A stretch of DNA of 64,000 nucleotides, taken from contig JAJDTB010000009.1 in NCBI GenBank assembly GCA_022827345.1, forward strand, positions 1-64,000. The letters are read 5' to 3'. The translations under genes and the position numbers were made by a program. Of the stretch, positions 8,820 through 57,667 are shown in pieces; the stretch's first letter is position 1; each line of letters starts with the position of its first letter. The notes beneath the pieces were generated by a model, which did no database searches, had not been told where the DNA came from, and saw nothing but the letters and a program-made list of their open reading frames with translations. The DNA comes from Gemmatimonadota bacterium. GTDB taxonomy: Bacteria; Gemmatimonadota; Gemmatimonadetes; Longimicrobiales; Gaopeijiaceae.

Positions 8820-9473
8820 CTACCCCATCCCGTCCAGCACCGCCAGCAACTCCCCCGGCTCGGGCCGCCGCGTGTAGTCCACATCCACGCCTGCCCACGC
8901 CACAACCCCGTCCCGGCCGACCACATAGGTCGCGGCAATCGGCAGCTCCCAGGTCAGATCGCCGTTGAACCGGGCGAGGTCGATGCGCAACTCGTCACGG
9001 TAGATGTCCTGCAGCACCTCGGTCATCCGGAAGGTCAGCCCGTAAGAGCGCGCAACGCCGTTACCGCTGTCCACGAGAACATCGAACTCGATCCCGTCCT
9101 TGCGGGCCCACGCCGCCGCGAAGTCGCGCAGCTGCGGCGACACCGTCAGAACCGTCGCACCCCGCGCGCGGAACTCGGGAAGAAGTGCCTGGAGAGCAGC
9201 CTGCTCCGCACGGCAGTAGGGTCACCAGCGTCCGCGGAAGAAGCTGAGGACCGCCGGGCCGTCCCGCAGAACCCGCGCGAGCCGAACCGTCTCGTGGTTC
9301 AGGTTGGGCCGGGCGAAGAGGGGTGCCGGGTCGCCGGCCTTGACGACGCCGTCAAGAATCCCTGACGCCTCGAGGTCCGCGACGCCGCATCGGAGCTGAT
9401 GTGTGATTGAAGGGTCGCGCTTGGCAGCTCCGGCTTCCCTGATGCGGTCCAGGGTCGGTGCGAGTCTGGGCAT
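8820..9473 (-). CDS. Peroxiredoxin-like (AhpC/TSA) protein, probable selenoprotein with Sec84 at an in-frame UGA
   Basis: Reading through one in-frame TGA (9224-9222), the gene codes for 217 residues from ATG 9473. The frame before the stop ends FFRGRW and after it resumes PYCRAEQAALQ, so the TGA takes the place of the first cysteine of the family motif F-[FY]-R-G-x-W-C-P-Y-C. That cysteine is the peroxidatic residue of this AhpC/TSA branch; the second is Cys87. The 133 codons after the TGA are intact and family-like (GATVLTVSPQ; later AATYVVGRDGVVAW). A hairpin at 9185-9211 fits a bacterial SECIS. The stop is UGA-C, a leaky context. Expected role: reduction of peroxides in the cytoplasm. The alternative is a single nonsense mutation or base error. 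No SelA, SelB or tRNA-Sec gene is in the window. Confidence 0.75.
9185..9211 (-). promoter_or_regulatory. Putative bacterial SECIS hairpin
   Basis: Counting the U of the UGA (9224) as 1, the mRNA folds as an upper stem GAGCA (19-23) pairing with UGCUC (27-31) around a GGC loop. A lower stem GUGC (14-17) pairs with GCAC (37-40), with small bulges between. Bacterial SECIS elements are short stem-loops just after the UGA with a guanosine in the apical loop. The E. coli fdhF element, as I recall it, has its GGUC loop flanked by GCA and UGC at nearly the same distance. Here GCA-GGC-UGC is almost the same apex. The fold was done by eye. Confidence 0.6.
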
Positions 9474-55552: not shown

Positions 55553-57088
55553 TCAATCGAGGTCGACTCGCGGGAAGAGTGGAGTGCCCACACGAACGGC
55601 GCGTCCCGTAACATCCTGATCCTCCAACCCCTCAAAAAGCGGGATGTTCCCGAGCCCCAGCCGGCGGCCCAACTCCACGGCCCTGGCGGGCATGACCGGC
55701 TCGAAGAGGCAGGCGAGCACCACGAGCGTTCGGGCGAGTGTGGCGAGTGTGCGGTCCAGTTCGTCCGCGCCTTCCGGCTCGCGGGCCAGCGCCCAGGGCT
55801 CCTGCGTCTCCACGAATCCGTTGGCGGCCCGCGCAAGGTCCATGGCAGCGGCGAAGCCTTCGTGCAGGCGGTAGCCGTCCAGAGCGCGCCGGTAGGCCGC
55901 GACCGCCGCCGCCGTTTCATCCGCCAGGCCGTCGGACGGTGCCGCGGGGACGGTGCCGCCGCGGTAGCGCCTGATCATCGACAGCGTGCGGTGGGCCAGG
56001 TTGCCGAAGATGTTGCGCAGCTCGTCGTAGCGGGTCAGGAAGCGCTCGGGCGTGTACGACGCGTCCTGCCCGGTGACCATCTCGCGCATCAGGTACCAGC
56101 GCACGGCGTCCGTGCCGAACCGGTCGCGCAGCGCGAGGGGGTCCACGACGTTGCCCAGCGACTTGGACATCTTCGTGTCGCCGACCACCCACCAGCCGTG
56201 TGCCAGGATCTTCCGGGGCAGCGCCAGGTCGGCCCCCATCAGCAGCGTGGGCCAGTACACGGCGTGCGTGGTGATGATGTCCTTGCCCATCAGATGCACG
56301 TCGCAGGGCCAGCGCGACGGGAGCGGATCGCCGAAACCGCGCCGGTCCTTCGTCGCCTCCGGATCGATCGCCCCGGAGGCGGTCACGTAGTTGGTCAGCG
56401 CATCGACCCATACGTAGGTCACCTGGTCGGGGTCCCACGGGATCGGAATGCCCCAGTGGATCCGCGACCGCGGCCTCGAAATCGACAGATCCTCCAACGG
56501 CTTGCTCAGAAACCCGAGCACCTCGTTGCGGCGCGTGGCCGGCACGATCCACTCCGGGTTCTTCTCGATCTGCTCGATGAGCCGGTCCTGAAAGAGGCTC
56601 ATTTTGAAGAAATAGTTCTTCTCGCGGATCTTCGTGACCGGCCCCCCGGCGATCGGATCCACCCGGTCCGGCCCGATCTCCTTCTCGGTGAAGTAGCGCT
56701 CCTGGCCGACGGAGTACCATCCCACATACTCGGACTCGTAGACGAAGCCGTTGTCGTACAGGCGCTCGAGAAGCGCGCTCACGACGGCCTTGTGTTCCGG
56801 CTCCGTGGTGCGGATGAAGCGGTCGTTGGAGATGCCCAGGTCGTCCCAGGCCGCCTGGAAGCGCTCGGCCATCCGGTCGCAGAGTTCGAGCGGCGTCAGC
56901 CCCTGCTCCTCGGCGACCTCCTGGATCTTCTGTCCGTGGTCGTCGGTTCCGGTCAGGAAGAGCACATCGTCGCCGGCGCGACGGTGGTAGCGCGCAAGGA
57001 CATCGGCCAGGATCGTGGTATAGGCGTGCCCCAGATGGGGCTCGCCCGAGGCGTAGTAGATCGGCGTGGACAGGTAGAAGGATCCCAT
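55553..57088 (-). CDS. metG: Methionyl-tRNA synthetase, lacking the zinc-knuckle cysteines
   Basis: 511 residues. Class I motifs are HLGH at 18-21 and KMSKS at 306-310. YVWVDALTNYVTASG and the NIFGNLAHRTL anticodon domain fit MetRS. In the connective-peptide region, where many MetRS carry four zinc cysteines, this protein reads GWYSVGQERYFTEKE and then GGPVTKIREKNYFFKMS, with no cysteine, so it is a zinc-free type. The C-terminal dimerisation domain is absent and the protein ends after the helical domain (PLFPRVD). It lies 3 bp after the FMN reductase gene and probably shares the transcript that starts at the aryl-CoA ligase. Confidence 0.94.
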   Translation of the reverse strand: MGSFYLSTPIYYASGEPHLGHAYTTILADVLARYHRRAGDDVLFLTGTDDHGQKIQEVAEEQGLTPLELCDRMAERFQAAWDDLGISNDRFIRTTEPEHKAVVSALLERLYDNGFVYESEYVGWYSVGQERYFTEKEIGPDRVDPIAGGPVTKIREKNYFFKMSLFQDRLIEQIEKNPEWIVPATRRNEVLGFLSKPLEDLSISRPRSRIHWGIPIPWDPDQVTYVWVDALTNYVTASGAIDPEATKDRRGFGDPLPSRWPCDVHLMGKDIITTHAVYWPTLLMGADLALPRKILAHGWWVVGDTKMSKSLGNVVDPLALRDRFGTDAVRWYLMREMVTGQDASYTPERFLTRYDELRNIFGNLAHRTLSMIRRYRGGTVPAAPSDGLADETAAAVAAYRRALDGYRLHEGFAAAMDLARAANGFVETQEPWALAREPEGADELDRTLATLARTLVVLACLFEPVMPARAVELGRRLGLGNIPLFEGLEDQDVTGRAVRVGTPLFPRVDLD

Positions 57089-57091
57089 CTC

Positions 57092-57667
57092 TCAGCCCTC
57101 CTCCGCGTCCACGGCTGCATTGATCGCCCTCGTGTACCACTCGAGGGTCTCGATGAAGCCGGCGAAGTTCTTCTCGTATTTCTCTTCCATGGGCTCGCCG
57201 TCCTCGCTGAAGCTCCGCGACACGTTGGAAACCGGCATCCCCGCCACGGGAAGCGCCTTGAGCCGCAGAAAGAGGAGCTGCAGGAAGTAGTGCACCTGGA
57301 CTCCGCCGAACCCTCCGGCCGACACGGTGACGATCCCGACGGGTTTGCGGAACCACTCTCCATGAATGTAGTCGAGCGCGTTCTTGAGGACGCCCGGCAT
57401 GGACCCGTTGTACTCGGGGCTGACGACCACCACCGCGTCGGCTTCCCGAATTGCGGTGGAGAAGCGGACCAGCCCCGGCGGAGGGTCGTCGCGCATGTGC
57501 AGCCGCTCCTCCATGATCGGGAGGTTGAAGTCGGCCAGGTCGAGGAGGGGAGCGTCGGCCCCGGCCTGCCGCAGGCGGCCGCAGGCGAAGCGGGCCACGC
57601 GGAGTGACTGGCGGCCGCGGCGGACGGAGCCGAGGAGGACGGGGATGCGGAGGGGGGAACCGCTCAT
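57092..57667 (-). CDS. NAD(P)H-dependent FMN reductase
   Basis: 191 residues from ATG 57667, overlapping the stop of the ligase (ATGA). A flavodoxin-like fold with LGSVRRGRQS near residue 12 (phosphate loop) and VVSPEYNGSMPGVLKNALDY near 80 belongs to the SsuE/ArsH-like NADPH-dependent FMN reductase family. GIVTVSAGGFGGVQVH completes the flavin site. It could supply reduced flavin to an oxygenase. It is coupled to the aryl-CoA ligase gene and faces the monooxygenase cluster, but the monooxygenase at the right end binds FAD itself, so a direct link is only a possibility. Confidence 0.85.
   Translation of the reverse strand: MSGSPLRIPVLLGSVRRGRQSLRVARFACGRLRQAGADAPLLDLADFNLPIMEERLHMRDDPPPGLVRFSTAIREADAVVVVSPEYNGSMPGVLKNALDYIHGEWFRKPVGIVTVSAGGFGGVQVHYFLQLLFLRLKALPVAGMPVSNVSRSFSEDGEPMEEKYEKNFAGFIETLEWYTRAINAAVDAEEG

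Follow-up and report, generated by a model that had tools for sequence, protein, structure and literature searches.

The window, a 64,000-nucleotide stretch of a Gemmatimonadota genome, carries on its minus strand a reading frame of the AhpC/TSA family that extends from an ATG at position 9473 to a TAG at 8822-8820, and whose sole internal stop is a TGA at codon 84 (Table 1). The peptide context of this codon is FFRGRW-TGA-PYCRAEQ. The readthrough protein matched PF00578 (AhpC-TSA) with 92.6 bits, compared to a cut-off of 26, and since the match covers residues 47-193, one domain spans the TGA. These results confirm the structure proposed in the first-pass annotation, namely a single in-frame TGA (9224-9222) within an otherwise intact gene of 217 codons.

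We scanned the whole window for in-frame TGA codons flanked on either side by sequence of coding-like composition and accompanied by a redox-like motif. The TGA at codon 84 was the sole convincing case; 2 other candidates were rejected, one because it resembles an ordinary gene boundary and the other because it is a weak frame. The gene is flanked by a convergent proC-like gene on one side and a divergent conserved ORF on the other. No redox partner or operon was found at its flanks, and the gene stands alone.

Table 1. Coordinates of the features at the locus, numbered from the first nucleotide of the window.
Feature	Position	Strand	Remarks
Predicted Prx-like selenoprotein gene	8820..9473	minus	AhpC/TSA family, Trx-like UxxC site; 217 codons plus TAG
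In-frame TGA, codon 84, predicted to be read as selenocysteine	9222..9224	minus	Same position in relatives
Cys87 codon, second residue of UxxC	9213..9215	minus	Opposite the peroxidatic Cys in peroxiredoxin alignments
Core of predicted bacterial SECIS hairpin, GGAGCA-GGC-UGCUCU	9193..9207	minus	Loop 20 nt after the UGA
Residues 1-42 of the protein			N-terminal helical extension

Fold and active site

An AlphaFold2 model of the protein (mean pLDDT 90.7) displayed a peroxiredoxin fold, and the best matches among solved structures were Bcp4, AhpE and BcpB, with Z scores near 21 and rmsd values of 1.5-1.9 across some 150 residues. This fold and the membership in the AhpC-TSA family both favor the view taken in the first-pass annotation, that the gene encodes a canonical peroxiredoxin with Sec in place of the peroxidatic Cys. 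The details of the active site, which bears the motif WUPYC (UxxC), argue against it. In sequence alignments to solved peroxiredoxins, Sec84 falls opposite the Thr/Ser of the TxxC motif, while it is Cys87 that holds the peroxidatic position, and the assignment of Sec to the peroxidatic cysteine was thus not borne out. In place of the canonical PxxxTxxC the protein bears RGRWUPYC, in which Pro is replaced by Arg80 and Thr by Sec84, with the Cys kept as Cys87. Likewise, most relatives have Pro in the column opposite the catalytic Arg of 2ywn, where the window's protein has Ala180, as read from a weak alignment of the second domain. Thus, although the protein shares its fold and the position of Cys87 with AhpE, Bcp4 and BcpB, the Thr, Pro and Arg of their catalytic set are replaced. 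PrxU (NF040737) also combines a peroxiredoxin fold with Sec, but has it at another position of the motif (TxxU), and the window's protein scored 13.2 bits with its model, below the cut-off of 270. We therefore regard a canonical peroxiredoxin as an unlikely identity for this protein.

In alignments with thioredoxin/ResA-type proteins, Sec84 corresponds to the first Cys of CxxC and the pair Sec84/Cys87 to the whole motif. We infer that the active site is thioredoxin-like and is built on a peroxiredoxin scaffold. A thioredoxin-like catalytic order, with Sec84 serving as nucleophile and Cys87 as resolver, is likely. The likeness to ResA-type thiol-disulfide oxidoreductases has limits, as their family model returned only 35.7 bits versus a cut-off of 170, and no signal peptide or anchor was apparent in the window's protein. 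Residue 180 is Ala in this protein and in its closest orthologue (L021), and Pro in all other aligned homologues, in a loop preceding TYVV; this column is possibly the thioredoxin-type cis-Pro position.

Conservation of the in-frame TGA

A genus-level search of the window's genome and 39 relatives recovered full-length orthologues in 9 genomes, that of the window included, with the other eight being 74-95% identical. All 9 orthologues contained exactly one stop, a TGA, at residue 84. We also surveyed 395 genomes across the phylum, counting a family member at E <= 1e-20. Such a member was present in 43 genomes, with a TGA in 42 of these and none in G255. When the position was read directly in 32 more distant Gemmatimonadota relatives, 31 displayed TGA at residue 84, including one (L114, from G130) that the tree placed outside the clade of the gene, while G255 displayed TGC (Cys). 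Cys also occupies the equivalent position in three Sphingomonadales homologues. Relatives with identities as low as about 40% keep the TGA at this codon, and no further stops or frame breaks were found in any full-length relative. An in-frame UGA at a site that is Cys in homologues is the pattern expected of a selenoprotein. The first-pass annotation had suggested examining residue 84 in homologues, together with disruption at other positions in close relatives, and both comparisons came out in favor of its Sec reading.

Pairwise dN/dS between orthologues was 0.05-0.31 before the TGA and 0.11-0.15 after it. The gene is under purifying selection on both sides of the TGA, and the low ratio past this codon indicates that the downstream part is translated and selected.

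Predicted SECIS element and selenocysteine machinery

The hairpin predicted downstream of codon 84 consists of a GGC loop and a 6-bp stem (GGAGCA/UGCUCU). It agrees with the bacterial SECIS model, which calls for a loop of 3-9 nt with a G in the first two loop positions, located 16-37 nt after the UGA (PMC13188914). Taken as a single sequence the hairpin was not significant: in an energy test the region did not exceed shuffled versions of itself in stability, and a stem as long arose in 31% of synonymous redraws. The weight of the argument for a putative SECIS lies instead on conservation. The GAGC/GCUC pairs were kept in 34 of 34 distinct sequences, whose proteins range down to 39% identity, with a G-U pair in one of them, and codon +9 was GCT in all 40 of 40 genes, where GCT makes up only 15% of Ala codons. 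Synonymous change at the hairpin of the window's gene was 0.29 of expectation, the second lowest value in the gene. Covariation was slight because the core hardly varies; a change from A-U to U-A in L110 was the single case.

The source genome (4.79 Mb in 75 contigs, completeness 97%) contains selA (508 bits), selB (321 bits, within an 847-codon frame), selD (378 bits) and tRNA-Sec (76.5 bits), the last with the anticodon tca (UCA) as assigned by ARAGORN. Thus, the four components for which the first-pass annotation had recommended a search of the same genome were all present. In the phylum survey selA was detected in 282 of the 395 genomes, and the Sec machinery, and with it selenocysteine use, looks widespread in Gemmatimonadota. 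Among genomes bearing a member of the family the proportion was 42 of 43, compared to 282/395 overall (Fisher p 8e-6, ignoring kinship). The exception was G338, a 290-contig draft in which the family gene was present and selA gave no match at the cut used. The selD gene of the source genome (C61:28808-29728, minus strand; L010) is a selenoprotein gene too, with an in-frame TGA in SHGAG-U-ACK and a strong hairpin 3' of that codon.

These findings bear on whether, with no involvement of Sec, the UGA might be decoded as a different amino acid such as Trp or Cys, through reassignment or misreading. A UGA followed by C, as found here, is a leaky termination context and would favor misreading. However, several orthologues of the gene terminate in TGA, indicating that UGA is still a stop codon in this genus, and both the presence of tRNA-Sec, SelA, SelB and SelD and the conservation of the hairpin speak against a reading that bypasses Sec; we consider it very improbable. 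A pseudogene is practically negligible as an explanation, for although a recent nonsense mutation would leave just such a lone stop in an intact frame, this reading is refuted by the conservation of the codon, the purifying selection past it and the intact frames of full-length relatives, and a sequencing error is ruled out by the independent genomes that carry TGA at the same codon.

Taken together, a TGA conserved at one site, a frame selected on both sides of it, a conserved hairpin and a full set of Sec machinery argue that UGA at codon 84 is almost certainly read as Sec, as judged from sequence. We place at roughly 93% the probability of the more complete reading, that the gene encodes a selenoprotein with a peroxiredoxin fold and a thioredoxin-like site, in which UGA-84 is read as Sec by means of SelB, tRNA-Sec and the SECIS. 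According to this model, the ribosome would insert Sec at UGA-84 using SelB, tRNA-Sec and the downstream SECIS hairpin. The selenolate of Sec84 would then attack an oxidized substrate, either a peroxide or a disulfide, and Cys87 would resolve the resulting intermediate as a selenenylsulfide, following which a cellular thiol reductant would recycle the enzyme. Reduction of peroxide is a possible activity. Of the Sec-containing peroxide reductase that had been proposed, the Sec part is thus supported by the machinery and the conserved TGA, whereas canonical peroxide enzymology is disfavored, as the protein lacks both the Pro of the motif and the catalytic Arg.

A paralogue and other selenocysteine genes

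A second Prx-like UxxC Sec gene was observed (L071, 2710-3372, minus strand; match in the source genome on C68 at 56718-57191). It was present in 23 of 23 searched genomes of the genus, that of the window included, in each case with the motif WUP[YFW]C, one TGA and an identity of about 31-35%. A tree that includes few Cys sequences and has several long branches separates the two Sec paralogues. The copy in the source genome begins with a stretch that, judged by eye, resembles a signal peptide. The hairpin of the paralogue is CAGCUC-GNN-GAGCUG, and synonymous change over the nine codons at this hairpin fell to 0.02 of expectation, a lower value than anywhere else in the gene.

Three further observations concern related sequences. 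An extra copy of the paralogue (L083, G012:C308) bears WUPFS, in which the second Cys is changed to Ser and the TGA is kept. A distant Prx-like gene from another family of the same order (L082, G026:C37) bears WUSHC, and its TGA is followed by a SECIS-like hairpin that differs in sequence. Finally, JAPPNF010000025.1 (L027), labelled Deltaproteobacteria, shares 87-89% DNA identity with Gemmatimonadetes contigs of the genus, and its label is probably a binning or naming error.

Relation to known selenoprotein families

The Cys relatives bear the motifs FYRGAWCPYCN (G255) and FxRGGWCPYCRAE (Sphingomonadales). They resemble cd02970, a family whose second Cys is the counterpart of the peroxidatic Cys. 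A cd02970 peroxiredoxin-like family protein with UxxS is described in a 2026 review (PMC13188914); the window's protein differs from it in bearing UxxC. The SelL-related redox proteins (NF040769) also have a Prx-like redox domain, but matched only weakly, with 33.2 bits where the cut-off is 120.

Prx-like selenoproteins that combine UxxC with a pfam00578 or related domain were reported as 'Prx-like protein' in the Sargasso Sea set (PMC1088965), as 'Prx-like 1' (pfam00578, UxxC) in the GOS set (PMC2398784) and as 'Prx-like thiol:disulfide oxidoreductase' in the 2026 review (PMC13188914); this kind of protein has thus been known since at least 2005. The window's gene has both the pfam00578 domain and UxxC, and is by that definition a Prx-like UxxC selenoprotein. 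It shares with this kind the PF00578 domain, a Trx-like UxxC that begins with Sec, and a predicted bacterial SECIS just downstream. Compared with the published sets by domain and motif, the clade of the window's gene differs in its origin from Gemmatimonadota and in its conserved N-terminal helical extension. The string 'Gemmatimonad-' is absent from the 2026 review (PMC13188914), the GOS paper (PMC2398784) and a 2016 survey of 5200 bacteria, and the phylum is likewise absent as a name from the Sargasso Sea paper (PMC1088965). A literature search by title and abstract returned nothing relevant on selenoproteins of Gemmatimonadota or of sponge symbionts.

Significance

The evidence that the gene belongs to a known kind of selenoprotein is solid, and the gene itself is probably unannotated. 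Because standard gene callers truncate genes of this type at the UGA, databases probably lack the orthologous group or contain it in shortened form. Gemmatimonadota are, moreover, a phylum unnamed in the selenoproteome papers searched, despite Sec machinery that looks common among them. We raise tentatively, as a proposal that we consider somewhat doubtful, that Gemmatimonadota may hold an old and distinct clade of the peroxiredoxin fold, in which Sec would be essentially fixed as the Trx-type nucleophile (in 42 of the 43 genomes that passed the threshold, with Cys in the other), the SECIS core would be nearly frozen and Sec would not be readily swapped for Cys, accompanied by a second Sec paralogue of exported type in every searched genome of one genus. 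A clade with so few replacements of Sec by Cys offers a good setting in which to ask what advantage Sec has over Cys.
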